A DNA stretch of 42,299 nt from positions 1-42,299 of the IMG/VR virus record IMGVR_UViG_3300031578_000125; one strand, given 5' to 3'. Below, piece by piece: positions 4,167 to 42,299 of this stretch (the stretch's first letter is position 1; every line of letters starts with the position of its first letter). The translations under genes and the position numbers were made by a program. The notes below the pieces were generated by a model. That model had not been told where the DNA came from, did not search any database, and was given only the letters and a program-made list of their open reading frames with translations. Source of the stretch: a virus.

Positions 4167-5729
4167 TTATAAATCTGTATGCTCGTACCAATCAAACAAC
4201 CAATTCATCCAATTTGATAATGCTGTATCGTTTGTTATTCTAACTAGATATTTTGCATTTGGTGCTAAAACAACCTCGTTGCTTGCTCTAACCTCGCCGC
4301 CTACCTTATTACCTGAGCCTAATTTATAACGGGGGCCAATTGTTCCGACTGTCGTTATAGTCGGAGTGTGGTACATCAATATTCCATTCGCTGTAACAGA
4401 ATTAAGGTTCCTATTAAAAACCGTCATGGGTGTTCCGTCGCTTGATGTTGTAGTGCCCAGGTATAAGATTATATTCGCTTCTGCTTCTGAGTCAGCTTCG
4501 AATAAAAAATGCCCCCACTTCCCAGTGATAGGCGTAACAAATAAAATATCATAAACCTGCCCGTTTGAAAGGTCTATCCAATCTTTGTTAAAGAAATGAC
4601 TTCCTTTATGTATTTCATGGTGAGCATGGTCTATTGTTGAGAAAGATCCAGTTGTAGCATCTTGTAAATATTCTGTACCAGAAGCAGCGTATGGGGTAAT
4701 CTTTAGCTGACTATTTGCATTCACTGAAATTCCGCTTTCTAACTCTTCAAGGGATATTTTTAAATTCCCTCCATTGGTGGCGTTTATATCTGTTACTGTA
4801 TTATCAGGCCTTGTAGCTTGAAGTCTTGCCACTACAGACCGAGTTTTTAATATTACGGCATTAGAAAGCGTAACAGCATCAGCGGTATGAAATAAAAGCT
4901 TAACAGCATTATATCCAGCTGTTATAGGTAGTTGGAATGTTCTTGACGTATATTTTGTTGCGCTTGCGCTTTCATCGATTACTGTTGTAAAAATACCCCC
5001 ACTATTACCTATTTGTATTTCTGTGTTTGAGAAATCACCAGAAAATGAACCAAGACCTATAACATTACCGATTATTGTTCTATTAAAGTGGATCAATATT
5101 TCCTTCGGGTTTGTTGCTGTTATATTTGTTATTATAGAATGTAAGTTGTCGAATAGATCGGTTACACTGCCACTAAAATCTCCTATATCTGATTGATCAT
5201 TCCATACGTCTTTAGAATAAACTGAGTCACCATCGACAGGGAAAGGGTTTTGAATGCCAACGTTGTTATATTCTTTGTCGTTCTCGTCTCTGTATGAAAT
5301 TACAGCTTTTACGAGTTCTGTATCGTCTTCGTCTGTTACTTTATCGCCTAATCTATGACTTGTTGGTTTTGCATAAACAGAACTATAAATAGTTTGTATT
5401 CCGAATTGCATAGTCGGTGTTATTCCGTTTGTGTACACAACTCTAAAGTATCTTGCAACCGGGTTAGGCTCCCAGAATTTGCGGCCACCAGCACTTATGC
5501 TGTATGGTTCATCAAAAATTATTACTTGGTCTGGACTCTGTTGAAAGCATACACCCTCACTTGCTGAGGCTTGGTCAGACCACACCCCGATTTTAATACT
5601 TGCATAATCTTTGATCTCTTCCCAACCACCAGTAAAAACTCCACCGTTTCCAAGATTTGCAACGGTGCTATTTACTATTGATAAAGTCCCTGTTATTTCC
5701 TGAACTACCATATTTCTAAGCTTGGTCAT
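4167..5729 (-). CDS. Putative tail/adhesin protein with beta-rich domains
   Basis: About 520 residues, beta-rich, with many Thr/Ser/Gly/Asn and no signal peptide. Residues about 40-110 read like a beta-sandwich (IGVWSDQASASEGVCFQQS, later RYFRVVYTNG), a pattern seen in carbohydrate-binding modules and virion adhesins. The C-terminal part again looks like a beta-sandwich (KWGHFLFEADSEAEANIILY). Its position after the gp10-like gene and a 197-residue protein, and before the ejection genes, suggests a tail or tail-needle component. I chose the start at 5729 because it overlaps the upstream stop (TAATG) with GGTGGG before it; a longer start at 5741 has no adequate site. The precise function is not recognised. 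Confidence 0.6.
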   Translation of the reverse strand: MTKLRNMVVQEITGTLSIVNSTVANLGNGGVFTGGWEEIKDYASIKIGVWSDQASASEGVCFQQSPDQVIIFDEPYSISAGGRKFWEPNPVARYFRVVYTNGITPTMQFGIQTIYSSVYAKPTSHRLGDKVTDEDDTELVKAVISYRDENDKEYNNVGIQNPFPVDGDSVYSKDVWNDQSDIGDFSGSVTDLFDNLHSIITNITATNPKEILIHFNRTIIGNVIGLGSFSGDFSNTEIQIGNSGGIFTTVIDESASATKYTSRTFQLPITAGYNAVKLLFHTADAVTLSNAVILKTRSVVARLQATRPDNTVTDINATNGGNLKISLEELESGISVNANSQLKITPYAASGTEYLQDATTGSFSTIDHAHHEIHKGSHFFNKDWIDLSNGQVYDILFVTPITGKWGHFLFEADSEAEANIILYLGTTTSSDGTPMTVFNRNLNSVTANGILMYHTPTITTVGTIGPRYKLGSGNKVGGEVRASNEVVLAPNAKYLVRITNDTALSNWMNWLFDWYEHTDL

Positions 5730-8868: not shown

Positions 8869-9801
8869 CTAATCGTCTGCTGAAGCAGTACCAATAATAC
8901 CACCTGTGCCAGCGCTTGAAACGTCTTCGTTGTAGTAATTTTCAAACAACATGCAAGTATCAGCGACAATAGATGCTGCTTTTGTCGCTAAATTACATAC
9001 AACATTGTTGTTCTGAATAACACCCGTTGATCCTGTCAAGAGTTCAATAACTGGCTCCGTACCAAGAGCACCAGTCCCACCGTTAATAAGCAGGTTGTTG
9101 GCTATAACCAACTTAGTCGATAGAGTTGTGATACCTCCGATGTTAGCCGTTGAATAATCGCCCTGAATCGTGTTACCAATTACTTTAGTTCCGTCTGTGT
9201 CTGCTGTGAATTTAATAGCGTGAACAGAACCGCCAAGGCCGTTATCAATGTCGCAATTCTCAACCGTTGCAAAATTTGAATCGTCATTAGTTTGAATAGT
9301 AATAAGAAACTCATCCGTTGCAGTTGTCTCGACATCAAACCTACAACCTCGAATAGTTGCAAAGTCAACGCCTGCATCAATATCAACACCGACAACAACA
9401 CTTGTAACGTTAGCGTGAAAATTAATATTCTCAACTGTTACGTTGTTTGCACCGATTACAAAAGAGCCTGCTGCGGCTGTATAGTCAACCCTTGGCATGT
9501 TATCGCCAGAACCAAGGCCAATAATAGAAATCCCTGCAACATCTGCATCAATTGCGCCCGCTGTTATTATCGCTTCTGTATGATTGGGCATAACATAAAT
9601 AATATCACCTTTGTTTGCTGTGCAAAGGTTTATTGCTGCGTCTATTGTTATAACTGCCGTTGCTTTTGTTTTGCCTGAGTTATTTATTGCTCCATTTACT
9701 GAATCAACATAATATACATCCCCAGGTGCCTTTGCACTAAGTAAGCTTGCTATGTCGCTTCTGCCAACCTGTAAACCTGTGTGGTAAAAATCTTTAGCCA
9801 T
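8869..9801 (-). CDS. Capsid-adjacent right-handed beta-helix protein
   Basis: About 310 residues. It starts MAKDFYHTGLQVGRSD, with AAAGGAG before the ATG at 9801; the 16 extra codons of the longer frame start with TTG and span a hairpin. After DVYYVDSVNG and an ITIDAAINLCTANKGD segment come repeated beta-helix turns (VTVENINF, ATIRGCRF, ATVENCDID, TKVIGNTI, LVIANNLL, GVIQNNNV). Proteins with this opening are common beside coat genes in environmental podoviruses. A head decoration or head-fibre role is inferred from position. It has no signal peptide, unlike the beta-helix proteins at 17714 and 39172. Confidence 0.75.
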   Translation of the reverse strand: MAKDFYHTGLQVGRSDIASLLSAKAPGDVYYVDSVNGAINNSGKTKATAVITIDAAINLCTANKGDIIYVMPNHTEAIITAGAIDADVAGISIIGLGSGDNMPRVDYTAAAGSFVIGANNVTVENINFHANVTSVVVGVDIDAGVDFATIRGCRFDVETTATDEFLITIQTNDDSNFATVENCDIDNGLGGSVHAIKFTADTDGTKVIGNTIQGDYSTANIGGITTLSTKLVIANNLLINGGTGALGTEPVIELLTGSTGVIQNNNVVCNLATKAASIVADTCMLFENYYNEDVSSAGTGGIIGTASADD

Positions 9802-13336: not shown

Positions 13337-15486
13337 TAAGCCCCCATAGCAATTTGTATTAACTCATCGTCTTCCATATCTTCAAGCGCTCTATCAACTT
13401 GCTTGCTCATTTGCTCAGACCTCTTATAGTCAATCTCAGCCCCTACCTTTTGAGCGTCTATCTGTATGCTGAATCTATCGGTCATTGCTTCGAATTTTTC
13501 AATCATTCGCTTAACGTCTTCATTCTGCGAGTTAGCGTTGATCTTCATTACTTCAATCTGATTCTTTTCGTGTCCGACCTTGGCCTTTTCTAACTCCGCT
13601 AAAGCTAATTGCATAGCTGCATCCGGTTGCTCAGGCTGATTTTTAATCTCTTCCATCATTTGTTTTTCTTCGTCTGTCTCTGGCTTCTTCACGCCCATTC
13701 TGATCAACTCATTTCTAAAGTATTCTCTCATGTCGCCAAGCTCAACACCATCCATCATGGAAAGGACTTCAAGTTCTATTACTGTTCGCTTAGGATCGCC
13801 AGGGGCCATGCCTTGCATTAATACCATGAGTTTTTCTATTGTCTGCTCTTTTTGGCTTCTATATGCTGGGCCTATATTTGCTGTGACTTCAAACTCTGCA
13901 TTGTTAATGTTGTTTAGAGTTACTGTTTCGCCTGTTTCTTCATCGACTATGAACTGCATAATCTCTGTTGTTTCTCTCGAACCATCGTTCTTAGTCAATA
14001 CAACCTTTCGCGGTGTGTCGTATATCTGTGCCGCCATACTTGCATATACTTCGCCATCTCTGCGCTTTGCCGTTGCGAAATTAATCTGATAAATTGTGCT
14101 TTGCTCAGAGATGCTTGACTGCATCATGGAAACGGTTTTGCTTGCTATTTGAACCGAGGGGTCACTGATCTCTTTCGGTAGCATTGACGGTGCAACGTCT
14201 TCAACTGATTCTCTTGTTAACGGTAGCAACATGGCCATTGCTTGCGGTATTTCTTGGTTCGGTGTAACACCTATGGGGCCGAGGGGTAATGGTTGACCTG
14301 TTGTGGTATTGATGCTGTTCATCATGCAATATGGGTAATCATCGTCAGGCCCGGATTGCTCGTACATGTGTTCGAACCCTGCTATCTGCTCCTTAGTATA
14401 AATCGGCTTTGATCTTGGAGACAACAACAACGAAGCAAGATAATTATACACAAAGTTTCTTAATCTTTGTGGGTCTTTTGCAAGCCTAACGAATCCTTCG
14501 TAAAATTCAGCACCCTCTACAAAAGTATGCTCCCCGTAAACAGGTATAATAGGAATATGAATTCCGGCTATAACTTCACCCTCGCGTTCTTCTGTTTCTT
14601 TGTTCATTTCTCCGTTGAGTATCTCACGACCATCAACTATATATTTTCTTACTTCCCATGTTGTTATTTTCTTTTCGCCTGTGACTTCCCAACCTTCTGA
14701 TTCAAGCTCATCTTTTACTTTTTCGACTTGGTTTTCTAAAAACTTGACCTCTTCTCCGAGTGGGTCAGTGTATGTCAAGAGTTTTGTTTGTATCTTCTTT
14801 CTGTGATAAAAGTTGCCAATATAATAAACTTCATCTGTCCCGGTAATGTGCCACTGAAAATCTTCTGACCTTGCCGGATCTTTAAAACTTGTGATACCTA
14901 CATCATCAGGGTCAACACCTGTTAGCCCTGCAACTTCGTCTCTGTATCCGTCCTCTGAATATGCTGCAATCTTTGTTACTCTGGTTGCGTCTGATTTGTC
15001 TTTATACTTTGCGTTAGAATCCCAAAATACAGTATTAACAGCCTCAAATATAGGTCTGCGCTTAACGACCTGCTTCTCTTCGTAGTTCATCTTGGAATTG
15101 TAATCTGTGTATAATTCCCATGCACCGACACCGCAAACTATTTGGTCTGTTCTTGCGTTTGAATATGCTTCTATGGATTGGTTGTTGTTGTCGTCTGTTC
15201 TGTATAGTCCATCTAATAAATCGGCTCCGTCTTCTCTTTCTTCATCAACAGGAATAAAATCTAACTGAACCGGGTTCTCTTCACCGTCTGATTGTATTTG
15301 TCTACCTGCTTTATGCAATAAGTCAAACTGCCCGAGGTAACCAAGTTGTGTATTTTCTGTGATCCATTCGTCATTTTGTGTTAAGAAATAGAAAACACGG
15401 TCGTTGCTTGCTTTCTCTCGCATTTCATAGCCGGATTCATAATCCTTATCAACCATCTTTGCTATCTGTTCGTGTGTTAGTGGCAT
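13336..15486 (-). CDS. Portal protein, P22 gp1-like
   Basis: 716 residues, against about 725 in P22 gp1, lying between large terminase and scaffold as in P22. It forms the dodecameric ring through which DNA is packaged and ejected. Visible features are an N-terminal wing/stem region (MREKASNDRVFYFLTQNDEW), a DPQRLRNFVYNYLASLL motif, the middle stem ASLLLSPRSKPIYTKEQIAG, and a long C-terminal charged helix (ALAELEKAKVGHEKNQIEVM) corresponding to the barrel region. The start ATG overlaps the terminase stop (TAATG) and its stop overlaps the DUF2292-like start, so the three genes are coupled. Confidence 0.88.
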   Translation of the reverse strand: MPLTHEQIAKMVDKDYESGYEMREKASNDRVFYFLTQNDEWITENTQLGYLGQFDLLHKAGRQIQSDGEENPVQLDFIPVDEEREDGADLLDGLYRTDDNNNQSIEAYSNARTDQIVCGVGAWELYTDYNSKMNYEEKQVVKRRPIFEAVNTVFWDSNAKYKDKSDATRVTKIAAYSEDGYRDEVAGLTGVDPDDVGITSFKDPARSEDFQWHITGTDEVYYIGNFYHRKKIQTKLLTYTDPLGEEVKFLENQVEKVKDELESEGWEVTGEKKITTWEVRKYIVDGREILNGEMNKETEEREGEVIAGIHIPIIPVYGEHTFVEGAEFYEGFVRLAKDPQRLRNFVYNYLASLLLSPRSKPIYTKEQIAGFEHMYEQSGPDDDYPYCMMNSINTTTGQPLPLGPIGVTPNQEIPQAMAMLLPLTRESVEDVAPSMLPKEISDPSVQIASKTVSMMQSSISEQSTIYQINFATAKRRDGEVYASMAAQIYDTPRKVVLTKNDGSRETTEIMQFIVDEETGETVTLNNINNAEFEVTANIGPAYRSQKEQTIEKLMVLMQGMAPGDPKRTVIELEVLSMMDGVELGDMREYFRNELIRMGVKKPETDEEKQMMEEIKNQPEQPDAAMQLALAELEKAKVGHEKNQIEVMKINANSQNEDVKRMIEKFEAMTDRFSIQIDAQKVGAEIDYKRSEQMSKQVDRALEDMEDDELIQIAMGA

Positions 15487-16955
15487 TACCTGCCCCCCAT
15501 TCTTTTTCTTGGTGTTGGCATTACAAAAGGCATAACAGGCATGTTTATTTCGCCTTGCTTTTTAGCATATCTACGCATCATGTAAGCATATCGAGCCGCG
15601 TCAAGTATGTCATCCATAACCTTAACAATCTGGCCTTTCTCATTTCTGTGGTATTGTCTGTGTTCTGCCATAAGGTCTGGTTGACCTTTGAAGATTTTAT
15701 ATGTTCCTTTGCGCTGACGGTCCCCGATCTCATAAAGGCCACTCTCGACAGAAACGCCTCCTTGTTGCCAAGTCGCATGTTCGTGAACGAGTGAAAAACC
15801 TGCTTTGCTCCAGTTCTCTTTCTGTTGCATTGCTACGTCCTTTCCTTTTTCGTGCATTAAACCATCTGGAGGCCATGCTACCGGGACACCTCGTGTCCAT
15901 GAGTTAGTAGCCCCCCAAGCGTCGTTAGCACTAACTTTTGAAGCTTTCCAACTATTTGTTATATATACTATATCGTTGTCCGGGTCAATTGCTAATTTTG
16001 CGAAGGCTTGCGGATGATCCCAACCAAAGTCCATTCCGCATATTACATTCCAGAAATCAGGTATTTCGAAGGGTTCGCACAATATGTATTCATCTGCTAT
16101 ATCGTAAATTCTGCCATGCCCCAACATCGGCTCACCTTCTGAACGCATCTTTCTTTGATATGCAGGATATTGGGCAAGGAGTCTTTCTTTTTTCTCTTCT
16201 GTCATGTGGGGGGCATCATTCCATCCGATCTGCATGTATGATTGTGTCTTAGATGGTGTGTCGCTGAATTGCATGACAAGTTCTGTTCTTCCGTTTTCAG
16301 GCGTGAATGTATATATAATTCGTCCACCCTTACCACGATCACCATTAATGGTTCTGGTTAAAAGTTGAGGTCTTATTGTCTGATCTCTTGGCTCTTCGTC
16401 TACATGAACCCAATCAACAACATCACCCATAATAGCGTGCTGACCCTGAGTATATGACCAGAATTGAATTACAGATACTCCGAGCTTATGCTTAACACGA
16501 ACCGTCCTCATCGCGTTAACTGTCCCTTGCGCTGATTCTTGGCTGTGTATTTTATCTTTAGGTATTAACCCACCAGCAAAACCAATGCCGGGAGTATAAA
16601 CACCGAACAATTCATTTTGCAGTAAGTCTCTTGTCTTCTCCATTGAATATCCCAAGCACCAGCACATTGGAGGGAAATCAAATTGGTGGCCTGGATAGTT
16701 CTCAGGGTATTCTCCGGTTAAATGGTAAGAGTCAATTGTTGTACCTACTCTTGTTTTCCCGATCTGATTTGCAGCGCATAAGCACGACTCAAAATATTCT
16801 TTAGTTCTTGCACAGAATTTCATCTGCCACTCATAGAAGGAGAGAAACTGGCGCTTTAACCTGTTAGCGTCAAATCTGTTCTTCTTCTCTTCAAGTGCTG
16901 CGATGAGAACAAGTTTATCTTTTCGGTTCTCAGGTATATTAATCGCTGTCTGCAT
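15486..16955 (-). CDS. Terminase large subunit
   Basis: 489 residues (P22 gp2 has 499). The ATPase domain shows a variant Walker A, CAANQIGKTRVG near residue 62, and a Walker B-like VDWVHVDEEPRDQ. The coupling motif region is RIIYTFTPENG. The C-terminal RNase-H-like nuclease begins with ICGMDFGWDHPQAFAKLAID, where the first catalytic Asp sits, and ends with the ILDAARYAYMMRRY pattern. It cuts and translocates DNA into the procapsid, probably by a headful mechanism given the circular assembly. It overlaps the small-terminase gene by 17 bases and the portal gene by the TAATG junction. Confidence 0.92.
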   Translation of the reverse strand: MQTAINIPENRKDKLVLIAALEEKKNRFDANRLKRQFLSFYEWQMKFCARTKEYFESCLCAANQIGKTRVGTTIDSYHLTGEYPENYPGHQFDFPPMCWCLGYSMEKTRDLLQNELFGVYTPGIGFAGGLIPKDKIHSQESAQGTVNAMRTVRVKHKLGVSVIQFWSYTQGQHAIMGDVVDWVHVDEEPRDQTIRPQLLTRTINGDRGKGGRIIYTFTPENGRTELVMQFSDTPSKTQSYMQIGWNDAPHMTEEKKERLLAQYPAYQRKMRSEGEPMLGHGRIYDIADEYILCEPFEIPDFWNVICGMDFGWDHPQAFAKLAIDPDNDIVYITNSWKASKVSANDAWGATNSWTRGVPVAWPPDGLMHEKGKDVAMQQKENWSKAGFSLVHEHATWQQGGVSVESGLYEIGDRQRKGTYKIFKGQPDLMAEHRQYHRNEKGQIVKVMDDILDAARYAYMMRRYAKKQGEINMPVMPFVMPTPRKRMGGR

Positions 16956-17328
16956 CCAAACCGCCCATTAACGATTTAATTCTATTGTCCAGTTCTTCGT
17001 CTGTTTCTTTGTTTATACTTCCGCTGTGTTCGTGTTCTTGTCTTACACTAAACTCATCTTTCTTCTTTCTTTCAAGAAATTTAAGAGCTAAGTTACCATC
17101 ATTTTTCATGTTATCGATTACAGATTGGCGGGCTTTAAATACAGGGTCTTCCTTAAGTAGCTCTTTTCTGTCGGAAAACTCAGGGTTGTCTTTACAGTAC
17201 TTATAAAGCGTGTCAGGGTGTATATCTGCAAATAAACAAGCCTCCCTGTCCGTGCACCCAAGCAAAAAAGCAGACTCAAGTTTTCCTATTGTCTCTGTTG
17301 TCATTTTAGTAGGTCTACCCCCTGCCAT
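16939..17328 (-). CDS. Terminase small subunit
   Basis: 129 residues. It begins with the typical AGGRPTKMTTETIGKLESAF segment, followed by a helix-turn-helix-like GCTDREACLFADIHPDTLYKY and then a charged helical oligomerisation region (KNDGNLALKFLERKKKDEF). It recognises the packaging site and regulates the large subunit. The neighbour relation to terminase large (17-base overlap) is diagnostic. Ribosome binding site AAGGGG precedes the ATG at 17328. A pac site is often inside this gene in P22-type phages, but none can be identified by eye. Confidence 0.85.
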   Translation of the reverse strand: MAGGRPTKMTTETIGKLESAFLLGCTDREACLFADIHPDTLYKYCKDNPEFSDRKELLKEDPVFKARQSVIDNMKNDGNLALKFLERKKKDEFSVRQEHEHSGSINKETDEELDNRIKSLMGGLDADSD

Positions 17329-17713: not shown

Positions 17714-19300
17714 TTAATCCGCTTCTATAGTTGTCGTCCCTGTTAATGATATTCCCGTTGTTCCTGTTGCTGATATTACTGTAACATTACAAGCTGTCTC
17801 CCATCCTATCGTACCGAGATATGTATCTCTGTAAGAGCCTATCAATAACCCGTCTGAGTCGACTATGTTATCCGCTGCTACACCCGTCAAGTTATCAGAC
17901 TGATCTGAAATGATTCGGTTATATTCGTCAAGCGTCACATTGTCGTATTGTATGTGATTCCGTACAAAATCTGAATCAGATACAGACGGTGTTCCTGTAT
18001 CCAAAAGCTCATTTTGCATAATATTTGTTGTTGTTATGTGTCCCCCAACTTTATAACTATTTAAGTCTCTATTCGCTCTAAAGTGGATAGCGGCATTATA
18101 AAAAGTATTTCTGTATATGAAATTATTGTCTTGAGCTCCGGGGGTTGTTATATCTCTCGTATCTTCAAAATATAAAGCAGTCGCATGATTACTAAAAAAA
18201 TTAAAGCATATTTCAATGTCTTGCTCATCATTGTACACCCCTATTTGTTGTCCAGAAAAGCCCGTTTGTGTGTTTGAGAACTCATTGTGCCTAATTGCCA
18301 CATGGTCATTTCCAAATTTTAAAAAAAAACCCCCACCGTACTGCCCCGAAACCGAGTTGTCTTGCACTACTAAATACCTATTTGAATATGCCATTATTGC
18401 GTAACTATGCGATTCTTGAAACGCACTTAAAAAAGTATTTTTATGGACGACCATATTAAGTAGCAAGTCCCCTTCCGCACTGTTAATATGAGACTGGTTA
18501 TGCCCGTCTGCCGGAGGTGTAAGAACGGATAACATATTTGAAAAAGTACAGTTATATATAGTGCTATAATCTGAGGTTGCGTAAGTTAATGAATAAAAAT
18601 AAGTATTATTAAATGTTGTATTTTCAAAATAAGTATCGTTTTGAGTAGTATACCAACAATACCCGAAAATTCCGGCGTTATCAACTTCTGATTGACCGTT
18701 CATAGTGACAGTTTCACCTGGGTAGCCAAGGTAGGCCAAAGGGTTTGTTGAGCTTATAGGCACTCTTGCCGTATGCCTATCATTTGAACCCCCATTTTTT
18801 GGGAATAAATAAGTGCCTGTTCTAAAATACACTATTTTCCCTGTATGGTCCGATAACCAGAAATCATCCAAAATAGCAAGCGGGGATAATATTGTGCCCG
18901 TATTACCAGAATTTCCGTTTGCTATATCCACAAATAAAAATCTATCTGTACTATCAGTTACTGTGACAGTGTAACTTTCAATATCAGTGCTTGACTCTGA
19001 GTCAGTTACTTTAACAGTTACGCTATGTGGAGAGCCTGAAACTAACGGGTTGGGCCACGAAATTTCCCCTGTATCTGGATTTATTACCATGCCCGAAGGC
19101 GCCGTTGTTAACTCCCATGTAAACGGATACGTGCCACCAAATGCGGATATAACAACTTTATATTCTATCCCAGGATAAGCAAATTTAATTCTATTGTTTG
19201 CACCCACCTCGTCAACATTAATTATATCAAGAGGATAATTAGCCGCGAATGAGCTAACTGATAATAAAGAAATGACCAAAATGAATAGTATTTTTTTCAT
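17714..19300 (-). CDS. Secreted beta-helix protein with Ig-like (He_PIG-type) domain
   Basis: 528 residues. Residues 1-19 form a classical Sec signal peptide (KK charge, ILFILVISLLSV core, SSFAAN cleavage region). Residues ~25-115 look like a cadherin/He_PIG-type Ig domain: YPGIEYKVVISAFGGTYPFTW, then GMVINPDTGEISWPNP, a hallmark of bacterial surface proteins. Residues ~120-480 are a right-handed beta-helix with repeated N-x-F/I turns (YFENTTFNNTYFYS, YLVVQDNSVSG, VAIRHNEFSNT, DIEICFNFFSNH). It overlaps the preceding gene's stop at TAATG. No catalytic polysaccharide-lyase residues are evident. A tail appendage, surface-modifying protein or enzyme are all possible. A signal peptide on a protein of this kind is unexpected in a phage late operon. 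Confidence 0.75.
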   Translation of the reverse strand: MKKILFILVISLLSVSSFAANYPLDIINVDEVGANNRIKFAYPGIEYKVVISAFGGTYPFTWELTTAPSGMVINPDTGEISWPNPLVSGSPHSVTVKVTDSESSTDIESYTVTVTDSTDRFLFVDIANGNSGNTGTILSPLAILDDFWLSDHTGKIVYFRTGTYLFPKNGGSNDRHTARVPISSTNPLAYLGYPGETVTMNGQSEVDNAGIFGYCWYTTQNDTYFENTTFNNTYFYSLTYATSDYSTIYNCTFSNMLSVLTPPADGHNQSHINSAEGDLLLNMVVHKNTFLSAFQESHSYAIMAYSNRYLVVQDNSVSGQYGGGFFLKFGNDHVAIRHNEFSNTQTGFSGQQIGVYNDEQDIEICFNFFSNHATALYFEDTRDITTPGAQDNNFIYRNTFYNAAIHFRANRDLNSYKVGGHITTTNIMQNELLDTGTPSVSDSDFVRNHIQYDNVTLDEYNRIISDQSDNLTGVAADNIVDSDGLLIGSYRDTYLGTIGWETACNVTVISATGTTGISLTGTTTIEAD

Positions 19301-19986
19301 TAGTTAACCCCTATTGCTACAAGTATAGCCGCGCTTTCGTTTGTCGCCGTTATTGACTTTGTGTAATCCCCAGCGGTAACATTTTCTTGATACCATGCAC
19401 CGACACGTGATGAAGAAGGTTCTACTAATATCCCAACCGTAGGCAACATGTCTACCGGCGGAGTTATAACTGTTTCTGGATCATCTGAGCCCCAAGTAAA
19501 AACAAGCATGTCACCCTCTGATGCTGTAACAGGTCCAACGGACGGAGCGTTTGGTGGCGCAATTCCTACTGCGCTATTTCTTATAACCCATGTACCTGAT
19601 GTTTTTTTGTAGAGTGTTATAATACCAGAACATTCAACAGAGGTTCCAAAGTTATAACTTGCAGGTTCTGATGAGGCTATTCTGTAATAAGAACCTATTC
19701 GTGCGCTGGAGTACGGACTTTGCTGTATGAGTACCCAATCGGTCGTCGTAAAAGATCCGACATCGTCATTATTGAGAGAAATTAGCATTAAATCGCCATC
19801 TACAGTATTAGCCGGAACATTAATAATACAACCTGAACCTGTGTTTGTTCCTGTCTCGAAAGAGTTATACGAGATTGTTGGAGATGTCTGCGTACTCTGA
19901 TTAGCAATAACCCCCATGATTCCAGCGCCACAATACCCGTTTATAGGAATAACTATAAGCAATAAAATAAATAATATATTTCTCAT
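19300..19986 (-). CDS. Secreted beta-sandwich protein
   Basis: 228 residues with a signal peptide (RNILFILLLIVIPINGYCGA; a possible AxA-like or lipobox-like boundary around GYCGA, although the Cys context is not a good lipobox). The mature part is a jelly-roll-like beta-sandwich (DLMLISLNNDDVGSFTTTDW, SSARIGSYYRIASSEPASY, MLVFTWGSDDPETV), a pattern seen in phage tail-associated and bacterial surface carbohydrate-binding proteins. It is coupled to both neighbours by TAATG overlaps. Function unknown. Confidence 0.7.
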   Translation of the reverse strand: MRNILFILLLIVIPINGYCGAGIMGVIANQSTQTSPTISYNSFETGTNTGSGCIINVPANTVDGDLMLISLNNDDVGSFTTTDWVLIQQSPYSSARIGSYYRIASSEPASYNFGTSVECSGIITLYKKTSGTWVIRNSAVGIAPPNAPSVGPVTASEGDMLVFTWGSDDPETVITPPVDMLPTVGILVEPSSSRVGAWYQENVTAGDYTKSITATNESAAILVAIGVN

Positions 19987-21002
19987 TACGGTGTTTCCTC
20001 AACAAAATTTGTATATTTACTTTCAAACATCCAGGTTAAGGTTCCATTTATATTGGAACAAAATCCAACAATTTGTTCACCTAATGTATCAGCAGTGTTT
20101 TGAATATGCTCATCCGCTGCCATCGCTGCACCATTCAAGAAGAAGTTAGCACCAGTATCTGGTTCAATATCAACTTGAAATTCATCACCGACCATAAATA
20201 TAACGTTTCCTCCGGCGTGTGCAGCGGGTAATGTAAATACATGATCAGCGCCAGTAGCCTTATAATTTGATATTACCTTATTTGAAGTCTCTGCAACAGT
20301 TAAAACAGATGGAGTTGCAACGTCCGATAAATCTGAAACGGCTAAACTCTTAAATCTTATATCTACCCAATCAAAATCATCATTACCAGCATTATACAAT
20401 ATTGTTGACCCGTCTACTGTAGGCAAAGTGTCATAGCTTAAAACATACTGTACAGCAGTGCTATAAAACGAAAAAAGCTTGCTTGCTAAACCTGTTATTC
20501 CCGACACATATCTCCATTTTCCGTCAGCGTCAGGTAGTGTTACAGTGCTTGTGTATGTTTGAGCGCCTAACACATTCGAGCCTGTGAATGTGTTATCTCC
20601 TGCAAGTGTCGGCAATAATGTTGATGCAACCTGGCCCATTTGTCCAAATTCGTCAACGTTAATGTACGATGTTAGGCCTGCGCCTGGTGCTGCCCCTATC
20701 GGCAACCTCCACGACCTATTTGCTATAGTAGCTCCGCCCTGTAACGCTGTATAAAATGTATCTGCTGGGTTCCTTAAATAAATTATTGTCCCGCTGTTTG
20801 CCGTACCGTCAAGGCATGGCCCTTCCGTACAATCTGAAACGCCTGAGACTGAATATAACTCTGTGTTATTTTCGTTTTGCTTTGTCCATGCCTGATTTAG
20901 TGTGTCTGTCGAAACGACTGTCTGTTGTGCTGCGTACACAACAACACAGATATAAATAAACAAAGCCGGAACGCTTATTAATATTTTCTTAATTCTTTTC
21001 AT
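19986..21002 (-). CDS. Secreted tail-fibre-like protein
   Basis: About 338 residues. The start at 21002 is preferred because its ATG overlaps the upstream stop (TAATG) with GGAG upstream; a 19-codon longer frame lies over the previous gene. The N-terminus KRIKKILISVPALFIYICVV is a strong hydrophobic signal or anchor with a YAA cleavage site. It is followed by TVVSTDTLNQAWTKQN, which resembles phage tail-fibre openings. The body is Thr/Ser/Gly-rich beta structure, and the C-terminal HVFTLPAAHAGGNVIFMV segment recurs in tail-fibre and appendage tips. I infer a tail or surface protein that is exported. Confidence 0.65.
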   Translation of the reverse strand: MKRIKKILISVPALFIYICVVVYAAQQTVVSTDTLNQAWTKQNENNTELYSVSGVSDCTEGPCLDGTANSGTIIYLRNPADTFYTALQGGATIANRSWRLPIGAAPGAGLTSYINVDEFGQMGQVASTLLPTLAGDNTFTGSNVLGAQTYTSTVTLPDADGKWRYVSGITGLASKLFSFYSTAVQYVLSYDTLPTVDGSTILYNAGNDDFDWVDIRFKSLAVSDLSDVATPSVLTVAETSNKVISNYKATGADHVFTLPAAHAGGNVIFMVGDEFQVDIEPDTGANFFLNGAAMAADEHIQNTADTLGEQIVGFCSNINGTLTWMFESKYTNFVEETP

Positions 21003-21229
21003 TATGGTATCTCCGTGTCCATAGTTGTATTCCATAAATCTGTCATAGCAGTATTCCACCTATCTGTCATTGGCGTGTCCCAGTATGTCGAAGAGCTTGT
21101 ACCACCTACGCCAAACCTTGAACCTCCGAATTTATCAGCGCCAAACTCCTTAAACCCAAAATTGGCAAAAGAAAAAGTTACGGCGCTCAACATTAAAATA
21201 ATTAGTATTGCTATTTTTATTGACTGCAT
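21002..21229 (-). CDS. Small secreted protein with WNT/MTD repeats
   Basis: 75 residues, start ATG at 21229 with GGAG seven bases upstream (a GTG two codons earlier is too close to that site). The N-terminal hydrophobic stretch IKIAILIILMLSAVTFSFA is a signal peptide. The mature part is Gly/Phe-rich (FGFKEFGADKFGGSRFG), then a short repeat MTDRWNTAMTDLWNTTMD. It is coupled by TAATG to the tail-fibre-like gene and overlaps the gene upstream in transcription (21217-21639) by 13 bases. Unknown function, possibly an adaptor of the secreted block. Confidence 0.6.
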   Translation of the reverse strand: MQSIKIAILIILMLSAVTFSFANFGFKEFGADKFGGSRFGVGGTSSSTYWDTPMTDRWNTAMTDLWNTTMDTEIP

Positions 21230-21639
21230 CTCCACGCTCCTGTAATAACAACCTGATTCGCTGATCCCGTTTCTGCAAAAACCAATCTTTGATACCCTGC
21301 AAAAATACTAACGCCCGAAGCTGGGTAAGGGTATACTGTTCCGCTTGTAGCACTTGCTACAACTTGAACAGCAGGGCTCCAAGTTGAACCGTCATTTGAA
21401 ACCTGATATGATATTTTAAGTGTTCCTGTCCCTGTAAAAAGAGGCTGAATACTAAAATAACCCTCATATCCTGATTTTCTAATAATAGTTAAACCAGGTG
21501 ATTCAGTGTCTGTTGCTCCAGCAGCGATTGTTCCAACTAAACTTGTGATGTTGTCTTTACGTATCTCTGCTGGTTCTGCATAAACAAAAGAAGCCGTTAA
21601 TATCAAAGCCACGGCTACTACTAAATAAATCTTTTTCAT
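21217..21639 (-). CDS. Secreted beta-sandwich protein (tail/baseplate-like)
   Basis: 140 residues. Signal peptide KKIYLVVAVALILTASFVYA with an AxA-type VYA-E boundary. The mature part GYEGYFSIQPLFTGTGTL, then ISYQVSNDGSTWSPAVQVVA, is a pattern often found in small structural proteins of phage tails. A strong AACGGAGG lies before the ATG at 21639. It begins the run of signal-bearing genes. Role not known. Confidence 0.65.
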   Translation of the reverse strand: MKKIYLVVAVALILTASFVYAEPAEIRKDNITSLVGTIAAGATDTESPGLTIIRKSGYEGYFSIQPLFTGTGTLKISYQVSNDGSTWSPAVQVVASATSGTVYPYPASGVSIFAGYQRLVFAETGSANQVVITGAWRCSQ

Positions 21640-22710: not shown

Positions 22711-22938
22711 TCATTCGCAGCTATCAAGTTCATCTTGTAGGTACGAGAGCTTGTTTAACCACTCCCACACCTCTCTATCTGTTTGTGCAATATTATCAAG
22801 CTTTTCGCTTACATTTTCTGTTGGAATTGGGTAAGCAGGGCAATTACTTTTTTTTGTTGCGCATCCCATTACAAGGGCGATCAACAAAAGGCTTACTTTT
22901 AATTTCATTAGAAACCCGCTTGGATTTAATGACTTCAT
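22711..22938 (-). CDS. Outer-membrane spanin-like lipoprotein (Rz1-type)
   Basis: 75 residues (or 65 from an internal ATG at 22908). A signal of KLKVSLLLIALVMGC ends in a lipobox-like VMGC at Cys26, followed by a short Pro/Asn-containing segment and a helical tail. It overlaps the 22844-23044 gene in another frame by 95 bases (65 if the internal start is used), the classic Rz/Rz1 architecture in which the o-spanin overlaps its inner-membrane partner. The pair would fuse inner and outer membranes at lysis. AAAGGA six bases before 22938 favours that start; the 22908 start has a weaker GCGGG. Confidence 0.6.
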   Translation of the reverse strand: MKSLNPSGFLMKLKVSLLLIALVMGCATKKSNCPAYPIPTENVSEKLDNIAQTDREVWEWLNKLSYLQDELDSCE

Positions 22939-23044
22939 TTTTTTCCTTTATTGCCGTTTTTAACTTAGCTGCTGTGGCTCCCCACTTCCAAAATGCAAAC
23001 AACATAAACAAAAAAGCCCCAATCTTTAGAATTAGAGCTTTCAT
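22844..23044 (-). CDS. Inner-membrane spanin-like protein (Rz-type)
   Basis: 66 residues with one N-terminal membrane span (LILKIGAFLFMLFAFWKWG) and a charged helical tail (AAKLKTAIKEKNEVIKSKR). Topology and the frame-overlapping lipoprotein neighbour are the evidence; the sequence is shorter than typical Rz. Its ATG overlaps the holin-like stop by ATGA. The tail KPFVDRPCNG has a Cys that could form a disulfide. Confidence 0.55.
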   Translation of the reverse strand: MKALILKIGAFLFMLFAFWKWGATAAKLKTAIKEKNEVIKSKRVSNEIKSKPFVDRPCNGMRNKKK

Positions 23045-23232
23045 TTTTTCGGTGTTAATAGTCTTTTAAGTGCGCTTAGTCCTTCAACAAAATACCCAGC
23101 CCATTCATCATCTTTCTTTGTCTTTGTTAATTTTGCAACGCTGACAAACAATACTGACAATGTTGTTAATACTCCGATTATTGCTATATAATTAGATGTT
23201 AACCATGTGATAAGCTCTTTTACATTTTCCAT
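23041..23232 (-). CDS. Holin-like small membrane protein
   Basis: 63 residues with one predicted span (YIAIIGVLTTLSVLFVSVA, residues 15-33), a charged N-terminus and a basic C-terminus (KRLLTPKK). Size, basic tail and position immediately before the spanins suggest a single-span holin that would permeabilise the inner membrane for the endolysin encoded at 23805-24104. CCGGAGG lies six bases before its ATG, and a TTGACA promoter is directly upstream. It is first in the late transcript. Confidence 0.55.
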   Translation of the reverse strand: MENVKELITWLTSNYIAIIGVLTTLSVLFVSVAKLTKTKKDDEWAGYFVEGLSALKRLLTPKK

Positions 23233-23267
23233 AATACCTCCGGTTAATAAGATTAAAACGTAATATT

Positions 23268-23296
23268 AGGTTAGTATAATTATTTATATTTGTCAA
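23268..23296 (-). promoter_or_regulatory. Promoter upstream of lysis/late genes
   Basis: On the minus strand TTGACA (23296-23291), a 17-base AT-rich spacer, and TAACCT (23273-23268), about 36 bases before the holin-like start. The -35 box is consensus and the -10 box is weak, consistent with a regulated late promoter. No gene occupies 23233-23300. Confidence 0.5.
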
Positions 23297-23300
23297 GATA

Positions 23301-23615
23301 TTACATAAAGCTGTTTACCGCAGCACCCCACCATCCGAAGACTAAGTCTGAAAATTCTTCATATTTGATCGGATTCGGTATTACCTTAACTATCTTATTC
23401 TTGGTTTCTTTCAGCGGATTAAAAGGCCACATTGTTATTTTAGTAACACGTCGCCTACGCCTCCAAGTTAGCACCTGTTTTTTTGTCTGTGCCAAAATTC
23501 TAAATGGGCCTGGTGATGTGCAATATGGCAAATCAACTACTACTATGTAGCTAAAATTACCGCACACATCTTTGTATTTTTTTTCTGATAGTTGATCTAT
23601 CTCATATTCTCTCAT
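23301..23615 (-). CDS. Small basic protein of unknown function
   Basis: About 104 residues. A central VLTWRRRRRVTKITMWPFNP stretch is strongly basic and the C-terminus (FGWWGAAVNSFM) is hydrophobic. The start at 23615 is supported by GAGGTG five bases upstream; the longer frame begins with TTG. It is last in its transcript before the late promoter. Function not recognised. Confidence 0.55.
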   Translation of the reverse strand: MREYEIDQLSEKKYKDVCGNFSYIVVVDLPYCTSPGPFRILAQTKKQVLTWRRRRRVTKITMWPFNPLKETKNKIVKVIPNPIKYEEFSDLVFGWWGAAVNSFM

Positions 23616-23623
23616 GATACACC

Positions 23624-23791
23624 TCAATTTAAATATTTAACTTCATTGTTTTTACTAATAAAGTTGAGATAATATTTCTTGATAATACGGTCTTTCTCTT
23701 CGTCTGTTAGGATAAGTATAACATCCTCTACCTCTTTTGTTATATTAGCGTTTAATAGTCTTCTTCTTGGTTCGTCTCGTCTGTTTTCCAT
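23624..23791 (-). CDS. Small unknown protein
   Basis: A 55-residue protein found by hand translation: basic N-terminus (ENRRDEPRRRLLNANIT), then a helical acidic segment (KEVEDVILILTDEEKDRIIK). AGGGG lies five bases before its ATG, and the next gene's ATG follows eight bases after its stop. The genes on either side are separate, so this fills an otherwise empty gap. Confidence 0.55.
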   Translation of the reverse strand: MENRRDEPRRRLLNANITKEVEDVILILTDEEKDRIIKKYYLNFISKNNEVKYLN

Positions 23792-23804
23792 GGCTACCCC
23801 TAAG

Positions 23805-24104
23805 TTATTCTAAATAACTATAATGATTACCGTCCAGTTTACCAAAACGGCCTCCCCATGTGCCGCCGATACTTTCCCAATACTCTCCCAATGGTTTATG
23901 ATTCTTTGTCTCTGTAAGATATACACCATCTTTAAACAAATTAAAATCAACTGCAAGCCTTTTGTAATGGAAACTGTTTTCGCTGTGTCCTGTTTTAGCG
24001 AAAGTATCGTCGTATGTTAGCTCATATCCGTGGTTATAGGCATATCCAACCAATAAGTGAACCATCCATGTAAAACGCCTTTGGTGTGTGCTTAGATTTT
24101 CCAT
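23805..24104 (-). CDS. Endolysin, M15-family peptidase
   Basis: About 99 residues from ATG 24104, which has a strong GGAGGG six bases upstream; the longer frame begins with GTG and overlaps the HTH gene. Motifs match the VanY/M15 zinc peptidase fold: TGHSENSFHYKRLAVDF (first zinc His and Asp) and GNHYSYLE near the C-terminus (last ligand His). Members cleave peptide cross-links in peptidoglycan. No signal peptide is present, so export would rely on the holin. It lies upstream of the holin/spanin cluster, separated by two small genes. Confidence 0.75.
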   Translation of the reverse strand: MENLSTHQRRFTWMVHLLVGYAYNHGYELTYDDTFAKTGHSENSFHYKRLAVDFNLFKDGVYLTETKNHKPLGEYWESIGGTWGGRFGKLDGNHYSYLE

Positions 24105-24135
24105 GTAACCCTCCGGTAGTTCGAAGCCTAAAAAT

Positions 24136-24318
24136 TCAATCACAGTTTATATCCTGTAACGTCTTTGTTGTTAATTTCATTAACATTCTTGTTTGCTTGC
24201 TGATCTGGCATAATCCAACCGCAAGCCTGTAAACTTGCGGATAACTCAATCCGATTAGCTTTGCGTATTCGGCTTGGGTCATGTTTCTTTTTAGTATATC
24301 TTGCTTGATAATATTCAC
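24136..24318 (-). CDS. Small HTH (Cro/XRE-like) protein
   Basis: About 60 residues, with an XRE-like helix-turn-helix NMTQAEYAKLIGLSYPQVYR near residue 12. The start is uncertain: GTG at 24318 gives NIIKQDILKR before the HTH, while the longest frame starts with TTG in a terminator-like stem. It probably binds an operator in the control of early or lysis genes. Confidence 0.5.
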   Translation of the reverse strand: MNIIKQDILKRNMTQAEYAKLIGLSYPQVYRLAVGLCQISKQTRMLMKLTTKTLQDINCD

Positions 24319-32876: not shown

Positions 32877-33536
32877 TTATTTATCCAAGCTCTTTAAAGT
32901 TTTAACACCGCATCTTAAAAGGCTTCTATAAATTTCAAAATGCTCTCTTTTTATTCCAAGATTTACCGCAAAATCTATATCCATTTTTAACCATTCTTTA
33001 TTTGTTCTGTATTCACAGCCTATTTTTGTTTTTTCTGCCTGAATATATAAGGAAAACCCCATCCAGTTAACTGACAATATGCTTTTGGCTCCGAATAAAT
33101 TGGCTTCGGATAAATTGGCTTCGGATAAATTGGCTCCGAGTAAATTGGCTCTGGATAAATTGGCTCCGAATAAATTGGCTTCGGATAAATTGGCTCTGGA
33201 TAAATCGGCTCTGGATAAATTGGCTCTGGATAAATTGGCTCTGGATAAATTGGCTCTGGATAAATTGGCTTCGGATAAATTGGCTCTGGATAAATTGGCT
33301 CCGAGTAAATTGGCTCTGGATAAATTGGCTCCGAATAAATTGGCTTCGGATAAATTGGCTCTGGATAAATCGGCTCTGGATAAATTGGCTCTGGATAAAT
33401 TGGCTCTGGATAAATCGGCTCCGAGTAAATTGGCTCTGGCATTGACAGCCAATTTTAAACACGCACTGATATTTCCACATTCGCATTCGAAAATAACTAA
33501 CCCGCTAAATCTGTTTTTAATAACTTGCTTTCCCAT
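32877..33536 (-). CDS. Pentapeptide-repeat protein
   Basis: 219 residues with about 23 tandem A(N/D)LxX units (residues ~30-150), e.g. [20 protein letters not shown], then a C-terminal domain ([20 protein letters not shown]). Pentapeptide repeats form a right-handed quadrilateral helix that in MfpA/Qnr proteins mimics DNA and binds gyrase. Here the repeat is flanked by non-repeat domains and the role is unknown. GAGGAG precedes the ATG. DNA repeats of 15 bp leave several alternative frames open on both strands, but this frame has the ribosome site. Confidence 0.75.
33088..33440. repeat. 15-bp tandem repeat array in pentapeptide gene
   Basis: About 23 copies of a 15-bp unit related to GGATAAATTGGCTCT (plus-strand reading). 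A block at 33123-33250 recurs exactly at 33288-33415 (128 nt, offset 165 bp, eleven units), showing recent expansion by unequal recombination or replication slippage. Confidence 0.85.
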
Positions 33537-39171: not shown

Positions 39172-41547
39172 TTACAAGTCAAAAGGTGCTGTAACAAATG
39201 TATAGTGGACTACAACCTTAACAACTCCCGCTGTAAAGTTTCCACCATTAGCCGTTAATATAATTGATTGATTAGCAGGGTACATCACAGGCGCAGTGAT
39301 AGTCCAATTATTATTGCTTGTTGTGCTGTTTAAAGCGATGTTACGAGCCACACCGTATCTATCTGTATCGGTTGCTATCCCTATGTCAAAATCTGTCGCG
39401 CCTGTTATGGCTGTTGTCACCCTTGTACTTACTCCAACAACCGTAGCACCTGCCGGAATTGCGTTTGTAAACGTACCAGTAGCGCCTGATAGTGTCAACG
39501 CCCCCTCTATCATCCGATCTTCAATTCTTGAATTTGCAATTAATTTGACGGATGCAGCAAGGTCGTAATCTGTGCCAGTAGTTATCGACACAAAATTATC
39601 TTTGCACCTTACGGTATCACTTGAAACCCTGATGCCGTTACCCGTAAAAGTTGCAAGCCCTTCATAGACGTTATTATTATTTACTATTGCTAACCCTGTT
39701 GAAGACGTGTTTCTTACAACAGCTATGCCCTCTAAGCCGTAATCTCTAACATAGTTACCGCTAACTTCAACGTTAAAATGCCCGTCAGCTTCGCAATAAA
39801 TCCCCCTACTTGTCGATGCGTGTTCAGCTATTATACTATTATTATTAATCCTGTAATCTGTTAATATAGGCATTTGCGTTGAGTCAGTCCAAATACCACC
39901 CGCGCAACCCTTTATTATATTTTTGGATATGCTCACATTCGATGTTGTCGTATCATCTGTTTCGGGCTGTATTAGCACCCCATATAGTAGAGGGGTAGAA
40001 CCAACACTTTTGATAATATTATTATCAATTATTGCGTCTGAGTAATCTGGGTATGTTGTACCCTCTATTGTAATATAAACATATAATGCTGCTGTTCCAT
40101 ATGTTGCATACGAATCAACCTCTATAAGATTGTTTTTAATTTCAATATCTTTAATGTAGTGATTTGCACCGTTTTCGTTTGCTGCGCTTGCTCTTGCTAC
40201 GTTGTACATAGATGAACGCCCATAACATTTATTGTTTGTTATTTTTATTGCTCTTGAGTAAGATCCGTTTGTTTGGTCTGCTGACTCATTTTCAATATCA
40301 AAGCTACCCAATGCTGTCGCAAGAGCGCCTGTTGTTGCATTATCGACTATGTTATTATCAATCGTTACGTTAAAACTATCACCTGCGGCAACGGCCCAAC
40401 GCCCCATGTCTTCGAAATAGCAGTTTTTAACTGTAAGCCCATCGACACCGAAAGCAAATATCCCATCGCCAAACTTATCAATACCCGCTTTATTTGATCC
40501 AGTTCTGTAAAATTTACAATTATCAATTAGTATATTTTTACTTCCCTTATCTTCCCCACCGTTGTCAAGTAATACGTCAGACCCGACGGTGCTTTCTCCG
40601 AAGACTATAATCCCCATATTCATACTTACATTAGCAGGAGTCGCCGATACAAGATTAGTTCTATTGCTGTCTAAGCTTAAATCTCTAACAGTAATATTAT
40701 TACACCCACCGAAGCCAAGTAATGCTCCGCGTATATAATCTGACCCTGTTGATGTTTCAAGTCTTTTTAGTGTCGTCCCGTTGCCGTAAATAACAATATC
40801 GTCAACATCGTTTATGCTCACATAGTCTGTTATATAAGTCCCACCAGATTTAAATATTACCGACTCCCCGAAGTTCAGCAACAACCTTAACTGCGTTGTG
40901 TCATCTACGGCATCGCTAAAAACACCGAATTTTTCAGCCTGGATAGGTGGATTGTAAATCCTGATAAAACGGCCTGTTGTTATTGCCGTGGGTTTTATTA
41001 TTGAAAAAGTATTATCCGATACTACATTGTCGGCATCCCAATAAAATTGGTCTCCACCTCCATCAGAAACAGAACTGTAACCCAATAGAGTATAGACATC
41101 GCCGTCAGCCGGAGCTTCTGTAACTGCTCTCATTTCTGCTAACGTATCAAAAGAGCTTAGAGCTTCAAGTTCTGCGTTTTTTGGGACATAATATTTTTGG
41201 ACTCCTGAGCTATCATCAATTCTTAAAGAGTAAGAACCGTCAACCATTATTGTGACAGGCGACCCAAGATATAATGGTATGCCTCCCGAGCTTGTCGTAA
41301 TTGGTTGTGTCACTGCAACGGTTGTTCCGTCTTCTTGTAATACGCTTATTGTTTTCTGATTTGCTGGCACTTTCGGGTCTGTGTCAACTTCACCTACGTA
41401 GATATTTGCAAGGCTTAAAGCTCTGCCTATCGACGGATTTGCGAAATACTCAACTGATAGGTTTACCCTATTTAATGCAAAAGAACTTTGAACTAAAACA
41501 AGTAATATTATTATTGAGCATAACGATTGTTTGAAAAACTTTTGCAT
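39172..41547 (-). CDS. Tailspike with P22-like head-binding domain, preceded by a signal peptide
   Basis: 791 residues. Residues 1-24: Sec signal peptide (FFKQSLCSIIILLVLVQSSF, cleavage after SSFA). Residues ~35-125: head-binding domain like P22 gp9, with IYVGEVDTDPKVPANQKTIS then VAVTQPITTSSGGIPLY (compare P22 [20 protein letters not shown], from memory). Residues ~190-690: right-handed beta-helix with many short N-x-I/F turns (NITVRDLSLDSN, VTIDNNIVDN, SISKNIIKG). Residues ~695-791: a beta-sandwich end. No Asp/Glu catalytic pair is asserted. It is last in the tail operon and coupled by TAATG to the gp16-like gene. A signal peptide on a virion tailspike is unexpected. Confidence 0.8.
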   Translation of the reverse strand: MQKFFKQSLCSIIILLVLVQSSFALNRVNLSVEYFANPSIGRALSLANIYVGEVDTDPKVPANQKTISVLQEDGTTVAVTQPITTSSGGIPLYLGSPVTIMVDGSYSLRIDDSSGVQKYYVPKNAELEALSSFDTLAEMRAVTEAPADGDVYTLLGYSSVSDGGGDQFYWDADNVVSDNTFSIIKPTAITTGRFIRIYNPPIQAEKFGVFSDAVDDTTQLRLLLNFGESVIFKSGGTYITDYVSINDVDDIVIYGNGTTLKRLETSTGSDYIRGALLGFGGCNNITVRDLSLDSNRTNLVSATPANVSMNMGIIVFGESTVGSDVLLDNGGEDKGSKNILIDNCKFYRTGSNKAGIDKFGDGIFAFGVDGLTVKNCYFEDMGRWAVAAGDSFNVTIDNNIVDNATTGALATALGSFDIENESADQTNGSYSRAIKITNNKCYGRSSMYNVARASAANENGANHYIKDIEIKNNLIEVDSYATYGTAALYVYITIEGTTYPDYSDAIIDNNIIKSVGSTPLLYGVLIQPETDDTTTSNVSISKNIIKGCAGGIWTDSTQMPILTDYRINNNSIIAEHASTSRGIYCEADGHFNVEVSGNYVRDYGLEGIAVVRNTSSTGLAIVNNNNVYEGLATFTGNGIRVSSDTVRCKDNFVSITTGTDYDLAASVKLIANSRIEDRMIEGALTLSGATGTFTNAIPAGATVVGVSTRVTTAITGATDFDIGIATDTDRYGVARNIALNSTTSNNNWTITAPVMYPANQSIILTANGGNFTAGVVKVVVHYTFVTAPFDL

Positions 41548-42299
41548 TATTTTTGCTCCTTTTTAGGTGTGGCCTGTCTTAACCCATTAATTATCATATA
41601 TTTGCTTAAATCTGAACTAACTTTTTTGGTATTCGGGTTTTTCCTTGCGGCTCTTATAATAATTTGCGCCAACTCTGGATCATGTAACATTCTTGACACC
41701 ATATCATTTGTTGCTTGAACGTTTAAATTTTTAAATGCTCCAAGTCCAAGTTTTGCAAGTTTTGCAGCATAGCTAACACCTGGGGTATGAGAAACTATTG
41801 TCCCTAAAATATTAGCAATTATATTTCCCTTTTCGGCTGTATCTGAGCCACCGCCAATAGGTGCTTTTGCAGTCCTGTTTTGCATTTCTATTGCTTTTTC
41901 CATAGTTTGCAGCGCTTTAATTTTGCCGGGTTGCCCTCGATATAAAACCGCCATAGCTGGTTTAAATCTACGCATTTGTTTAGAGAGTGTTGCATTGCTT
42001 AAAACTTTGTCGTCTTTTATAGACTTTGCAGTAGTTTCTGCTGTTTCATACATAAAATTCTTAAATGAGTTTTCAAGTGCCCGGGTTGCCTTCTTATTAC
42101 CTTTCATTCTCTTCATAAGGTTCCGCATAATTTCGCCTGTGTTTTTTGCGCTTATGCCTTCACCGCCTGAAAAAGCTCTTGCTATTGCGTTTTGCGGATC
42201 TGAATCTAAAAGTTTTGCTGCAATAGAATCATTGAATTTATTTTGCGCTTTCTGAGCGTTGAACATTGAGCTGTGCGCTGACTCTACAGAATCAAAATA
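41547..42299 (-). CDS. Ejection (gp16-like) protein, C-terminal part; continues at 141-2214
   Basis: Right-hand part of the gene running from base 2214 through the circular junction. Inside this window the frame is open to 42299. The last 239 residues, NAQKAQNKFNDSIAAKLLDS onward, include Ala/Lys-rich helices (KKATRALENSFKNFMYE), a GPI-like GGGSDTAEKG stretch and an AAKLAKLGLGAFKNLN hydrophobic helix. Its stop overlaps the tailspike start (TAATG). The internal ATG at 42266 is not a start, because the frame is open upstream. Confidence 0.75.
   Translation of the reverse strand, partial: YFDSVESAHSSMFNAQKAQNKFNDSIAAKLLDSDPQNAIARAFSGGEGISAKNTGEIMRNLMKRMKGNKKATRALENSFKNFMYETAETTAKSIKDDKVLSNATLSKQMRRFKPAMAVLYRGQPGKIKALQTMEKAIEMQNRTAKAPIGGGSDTAEKGNIIANILGTIVSHTPGVSYAAKLAKLGLGAFKNLNVQATNDMVSRMLHDPELAQIIIRAARKNPNTKKVSSDLSKYMIINGLRQATPKKEQK
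42174..42299. repeat. Right copy of terminal redundancy
   Basis: Identical to 16-141 (126 nt). It lies inside the continuous frame of the gp16-like gene and shows that the two ends of the window join. Confidence 0.9.

Follow-up and report, generated by a model that had tools for sequence, protein, structure and literature searches.

The window, i.e. the whole stretch of 42,299 nucleotides that was analysed, was found by sequence analysis to be the complete 42 kb genome of a P22-like podovirus. Its ends share a 133-nt direct repeat (Table 1) and the record is therefore a complete, circularly closing genome. Two reading frames run off the record, one on the left (1-2214) and one on the right (41547-42299), and probably encode parts of a single ejection-type protein. 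The P22-like hallmarks include a portal protein (phrog_156), terminase, gp10-like Hc3 and gp4-like Ad3 proteins and a head-binding tailspike, and the replication and recombination genes include those for a DnaB-like helicase, an Erf-like annealing protein and exonuclease VIII. The late genes are located on the minus strand, where a block of genes for leader-bearing proteins sits between the lysis genes and the terminase genes. Taken together, the endolysin, spanin and holin-like genes imply lysis of a diderm host. Elsewhere in the window, a gene of 219 aa that matches phrog_7713 (function unknown; 32877-33536) contains about 23 registers of a 15-nt repeat at 33010-33504.

Table 1. Features of the window and all-leader cassettes observed in its relatives.
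Feature	Position	Strand	Remarks
Direct end repeat	9-141 with 42167-42299	.	132 of 133 nt identical
Beta-helix-like protein	8869-9801	-	Between major capsid and gp4-like genes; no leader in the window
Terminase large subunit	15486-16955	-	No leader
Terminase small subunit	16939-17328	-	Downstream neighbour of the leader block; no leader
Leader gene 5	17714-19300	-	528 aa; leader MKKILFILVISLLSVSSFA/ANYP; He_PIG Ig-like domain and right-handed beta-helix
Leader gene 4	19300-19986	-	228 aa; leader MRNILFILLLIVIPINGYCGA; cleavage site less certain
Leader gene 3	19986-21002	-	338 aa; leader MKRIKKILISVPALFIYICVVVYA/AQQT
Leader gene 2	21002-21229	-	75 aa; leader MQSIKIAILIILMLSAVTFSFA/NFGF; Gly/Trp-rich tail
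Leader gene 1 (first of block)	21217-21639	-	140 aa; leader MKKIYLVVAVALILTASFVYA/EPAE; strong Shine-Dalgarno; beta-rich body
Lysis genes	22711-24143	-	Upstream of the leader block
Rz/Rz1-like spanin pair	22844-23044 and 22711-22938	-	Weak matches
Small membrane protein	23041-23232	-	Holin-like by position
Endolysin	23805-24143	-	Weak match
Tailspike	39172-41547	-	791 aa; leader MQKFFKQSLCSIIILLVLVQSSFA/LNRV at 41476-41547, then P22-type head-binding domain and beta-helix
All-leader cassette	Window		5 genes
All-leader cassette	G023; G025		4 genes in each, flanked by gp4-like and gp10-like genes
All-leader cassette	G030		Tailspike and 3 genes
All-leader cassette	L034/G022		4 genes after fibre genes
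All-leader cassette	L011/G003		3 genes, placed as in the window between the lysis and terminase genes

A Sec-type leader, consisting of a Lys/Arg n-region and a hydrophobic core, begins each of five consecutive reading frames between 21639 and 17714. A clear A-X-A-type cleavage site was found in four of them, unlike the 228-aa protein where the site is weak or uncertain. Leader genes make up six of the 68 genes in the window and five of these are adjacent (P = 3.5e-5, permutation); the run of leader genes described in an earlier note on this DNA is real. At any protein size, clear non-lipoprotein leaders in the window were observed only in the five block genes and the tailspike, and one 66-aa membrane protein also scores in the leader test. 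No leader is present on the capsid, portal, connector and ejection proteins, nor on the other surface-type proteins of the window (8869-9801 and possibly 4167-5729).

All five reading frames of the block exist on the minus strand, with two of their starts corrected: the preferred start is an ATG in both cases, at 21002 for the 338-aa protein and at 21229 for the 75-aa protein, instead of the listed GTG codons at 21059 and 21235. Four of the genes are indeed chained by TAATG, through three junctions (19300, 19986 and 21002), and the fifth is joined by a 13-nt overlap between the 75-aa and 140-aa genes. The argument for coordinated production that had been drawn from these junctions has no force and TAATG coupling was rejected as the mark of a special unit, because neighbours overlap by 1 nt in 11 of the 59 same-strand pairs of this genome. 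The 528-aa protein matches He_PIG (2e-10) and Beta_helix (4e-7) in Pfam, and the fold descriptions given earlier hold for this protein and for the tailspike; the 140-, 75-, 338- and 228-aa proteins gave no match in Pfam or PHROG. In addition, no INPHARED match was observed for the 140-, 228-, 338- and 528-aa proteins and nothing was found for the 528-aa protein in one PDB sequence search. The AlphaFold models of the 140-aa and 228-aa proteins (pLDDT 58 and 37) were too poor for use. Over its C-terminal 123 residues the 338-aa protein shares 76% identity with the end of a leader-less protein of the tail-fibre type from another podovirus (L034:9542-10369), the N-terminus of which resembles a virion-attachment domain.

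Signal-peptide calls were made with a heuristic written for this analysis, other than SignalP, which missed at least one real leader (a 171-aa gene in G026) and lets through some small membrane proteins. It flagged two of 1341 residue-shuffled proteins, ten of 610 proteins in prophage loci (all of at most 163 aa) and three of 633 in the TerL relatives. The TerL alignment matches comprise gammaproteobacterial prophages together with single contigs from Desulfonatronovibrio, Poribacteria and other MAGs. Leaders are essentially absent from the gammaproteobacterial prophages of the group, and essentially no large leader genes were found in the TerL-matched prophages and MAG contigs. The tailspike gave no match in 395 genomes sampled from the Desulfonatronovibrio phylum in a search run without a positive control. 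One TerL frame (L018:10001-11419) contains a single in-frame stop, which may reflect recoding or an assembly error.

The leader that had been claimed for the tailspike is present and covers 24 residues ahead of the head-binding domain (PF09008, E 5.3e-16, residues 42-123), which is followed by a right-handed beta-helix body (PF13229, E 7.5e-10). This protein is the only head-binding protein identified in the complete genome, and its gene closes the late structural operon, directly after the ejection-protein genes. Of the 80 tailspike loci found in a scan of IMG/VR, 15 carry a leader; together with the window and with near-duplicates merged, these give 13 distinct leaders. In all 13 environmental tailspikes the leader immediately precedes the head-binding domain. 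The leaders contain two to three Lys/Arg within the first ten residues, a hydrophobic core and no acidic residue, with Ala (12) or Gly (1) at position -1 and A/S/C/V at position -3. Mean identity among them is only 40% (range 19-74%) and the leader features are thus kept in all 13 while the letters drift. The sequence pattern of Sec export and signal peptidase I cleavage was therefore observed in every one of these tailspikes, and clearly in four of the five block genes.

Seven tailspikes were aligned, three with a leader and four without, and the leader-less proteins were found to begin with Met at, or a few residues from, the first residue after the predicted cleavage site. In the three tailspike genes that were read at the codon level, the codon after the leader junction is TTA, CTT or CTC and an internal start at this position is therefore ruled out; a Shine-Dalgarno-like sequence lies ahead of the leader ATG in each of them. 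On the tree of head-binding domains at least nine changes of the leader trait are needed and two are forced by well-supported branches, so gains and losses appear frequent and their number uncertain. The head-binding region is matched by 194 INPHARED records. Among the 40 matches listed, all start at query residue 25 or later, past the leader, and the sole INPHARED N-terminus that was read (MW202475) has no leader. Disulfide folding is not supported as a reason for export, as the Cys content is no higher in spikes with a leader than in those without (0.76% vs 0.99%). Two near-identical spikes (L112:9146-11326 and L113) carry a VSGC lipobox-like motif in the leader, before the PVLA/ANKI site, and could have a lipid anchor instead of a soluble form.

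The exact junction between forms with and without a leader was also observed in two further late-gene families. In a 125-aa family encoded between gp4 and gp10, the G023 protein reads ...GWSA/NTVNKTNRTIEV where the G041 protein reads M-SNTVKTTNRTIEV (59% identical), and the G041 homologues begin M-SNTV or M-ANTI at the junction. The second is a beta-helix family with an FFHTGL motif encoded between the major capsid and gp4-like genes. A leader is present at the exact N-terminus in three loci on three other contigs, and the window member (8869-9801) has none; the remaining homologues found start with Met at most 13 residues from the motif. An automatic leader call in this family (L281) was rejected as false since its 'cleavage' falls beyond the motif. 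Both forms also occur in the family of the 140-aa block protein and in a 117-aa family, with less exact junctions. Absence of leaders from homologues had been named in the earlier note as evidence against export; such homologues do occur, yet they begin with Met at the predicted mature N-terminus.

Cassettes of three to five genes in which every gene carries a leader were found to recur in relatives at several positions of the operon (Table 1). In G041, which is leader-less, the insertion between gp4 and gp10 holds homologues without leaders, and a close relative with a leader-less spike (G021) has zero leader genes. Among proteins of at least 95 aa, further leader genes account for 26 of 410 in contigs with a leader-bearing spike vs seven of 571 in the others. 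At the contig level the difference gives Mann-Whitney p = 0.0024, and Fisher p = 0.009 for contigs with two or more such genes, in a comparison that ignores relatedness and for which trees give too few supported independent pairs. Export of the whole set is not universal because three contigs (G001, G005 and G024) carry a leader on the tailspike alone. The survey of related environmental phages therefore bears out the recurrence of leaders on tailspikes and of all-leader cassettes. At the sequence level the proposal of an exported appendage system in a podovirus stands and now includes the tailspike, and the window is one case of a recurrent, apparently unnamed trait in P22-like phages.

We consider it somewhat better than an even chance that this lytic P22-like lineage makes its tailspike and fibre-like accessory proteins as Sec precursors, and that these appendages join the heads outside the cytoplasm. 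The leader would carry the tailspike and fibre-like proteins across the host inner membrane via Sec and would be cut off by signal peptidase I, where the mature tailspike N-terminus would then resemble that of an ordinary P22-type spike. The leader-less capsid, portal, connector and ejection proteins would build DNA-filled heads in the cytoplasm while the exported appendages collect in the periplasm or outside. The two would meet once holin, endolysin and spanin break the envelope, such that the exported set would correspond to the outermost, last-added appendages, attached at or after lysis. Sec export and cleavage of the leader-bearing proteins are strongly suggested by their sequences, and are the best reading because the leader is kept despite drift, in register, on the sole head-binding protein. 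A spike cleaved by signal peptidase I would lie outside the cytoplasm and would therefore meet heads at or after lysis; attachment outside the cytoplasm may follow in this way. In P22 the spikes are the last parts to be added, a step that also proceeds in vitro and in extracts, and no new assembly chemistry would thus be needed. Possible advantages include keeping a receptor-binding or depolymerising spike off the heads until release, or pre-treating the cell surface. More tentatively, and with slightly less than even confidence, we suggest that the virion is finished deliberately outside the cytoplasm and that lineages switch by gaining or losing an exact N-terminal signal peptide on appendage genes. 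Permanent display on the envelope, which had also been proposed, is not borne out, as consistent anchors or lipoboxes are lacking (no lipobox was called in the block proteins of 75-528 aa) and the tailspike retains its virion head-binding domain.

Leaders speak for export regardless of destination, and the proteins could instead be late secreted or periplasmic effectors while the virions use another receptor-binding protein. We regard this as unlikely, together with the role that such effectors might have in breaking down or masking surface polysaccharide, which would help release or prevent re-adsorption and superinfection. Bacteria do export comparable proteins. WceF of Pantoea stewartii is a tailspike-like trimeric beta-helix enzyme with an export signal, as here, and has fold similarity to tailspikes (PMC7949094), but it is bacterial, uses a Tat signal and belongs to no phage genome. 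The Bdellovibrio MAT proteins are phage-fibre-like, modular, trimeric adhesins with a signal peptide (PMC10769870); unlike the window proteins, they serve bacterial predation and are encoded outside a phage late operon. Small exported phage lipoproteins serve superinfection exclusion (PMC4936722), and the block proteins are not small lipobox-bearing proteins of this type. BNR-repeat and TIG domains in the L011 cassette would also suit an effector. However, the tailspike retains a complete P22 head-binding domain, the only one found in the complete genome, and its mature N-terminus matches those of leader-less virion spikes. Furthermore, leaders are also found on genes within the gp4-gp10 structural operon and on the capsid-adjacent family, and the C-terminal module of the 338-aa protein is common to a leader-less fibre-type protein.

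A mixed fate, where only a fraction of each protein pool leaves the cytoplasm and the rest builds the virion normally, would explain how a virion spike can have an export signal, and fast-folding beta-helices may escape Sec. We consider it distinctly unlikely, given that no internal start codon was observed at the junction in the three genes read; a cytoplasmic spike would therefore bear about 24 hydrophobic residues before its head-binding domain. It is a little less probable still that the leaders are uncleaved hydrophobic N-terminal helices, in the virion or as a membrane tether, with no soluble export. Cleavage cannot be proven from sequence alone and the site of the 228-aa protein is weak, but small residues are found at -3/-1 in all 13 tailspike leaders, acidic residues are lacking, the register with the Met of leader-less homologues is exact, and the leader sequences are diverse, whereas sequence conservation would be expected of a structural helix. 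Lastly, phages commonly encode small membrane proteins and spanins, which produce some false calls (as in the prophage loci), but meaningless chance hydrophobic N-termini or wrong starts are highly improbable in view of the clustering in the window, the rarity of calls among shuffled proteins, the exact junctions in three protein families and the recurrence in unrelated metagenome contigs.

The assembly of tailed phages is, by textbook account, cytoplasmic. Phages use the host Sec system for Rz1 and Cor-type lipoproteins and for SAR endolysins, which are small lysis or immunity proteins and not virion appendages, and the window block differs in having no lipoboxes. We know of no tailed phage in which an appendage is exported before it joins the particle. 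The open-access literature yielded nothing relevant on exported or secreted tailspikes of tailed phages, and the absence of precedent is provisional. The window shares portal, terminase, gp4-like and gp10-like genes with P22-like podoviruses, and its tailspike shares with P22 gp9 (PF09008) the head-binding domain, the beta-helix and the position after the ejection-protein genes. Whereas an ordinary spike of the P22 type is expected to have no signal peptide and to be cytoplasmic until attached, the window tailspike carries a predicted cleavable Sec-type leader before the head-binding domain. Sec signals on virion proteins are known in the filamentous phage Ff, where proteins such as pVIII are assembled on or outside the inner membrane (PMC4823517), and the window resembles Ff in this predicted respect. 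In contrast to the membrane-inserted subunits and extruded ssDNA filament of Ff, however, the appendages here would be soluble and belong to a lytic tailed dsDNA phage.

The assembly route implied would be new for tailed phages. With exported spikes, part of assembly would cross a membrane and free spikes could act ahead of, or separately from, virions. The absence of a signal peptide has been used to tell phage from bacterial fibre-like proteins (PMC6199706); if the proposed export is true, annotation pipelines may mistake the receptor-binding proteins of phages for secreted proteins of bacteria. Pairs with and without a leader are ready natural controls.

Further leader-bearing proteins were noticed among the relatives. 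A 510-aa protein of G025 (L187:10298-11827, minus strand) matches the phrog_5302 tail protein over residues 28-510 (E 3e-100). Relatives without leaders occur in crAss-like phage cr50_1, Bacteroides phage Versailles, Methanosarcina virus MetMV and Psychrobacillus phage Perkons, and those of cr50_1, Versailles and Perkons adjoin or sit near reverse transcriptases. It is possible that the G025 protein is related to DGR targets but exported; when the G025 fragment and the contigs were searched for the YxDD motif, no RT-like gene was found. In G023, a leader-bearing Lcl_C protein (PF07603, E 6e-25; L184:100-1500, minus strand) is located inside the gp4-gp10 interval, and a 47.6 kb contig contains a neighbouring pair of leader genes (464 and 169 aa; L314:6010-8026). 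Finally, a leader-bearing protein of about 115 aa is found at L004:2911-3255, where it directly follows TerL, and at L194:18109-18459 (minus strand), and its homologue in G046 begins without a leader.
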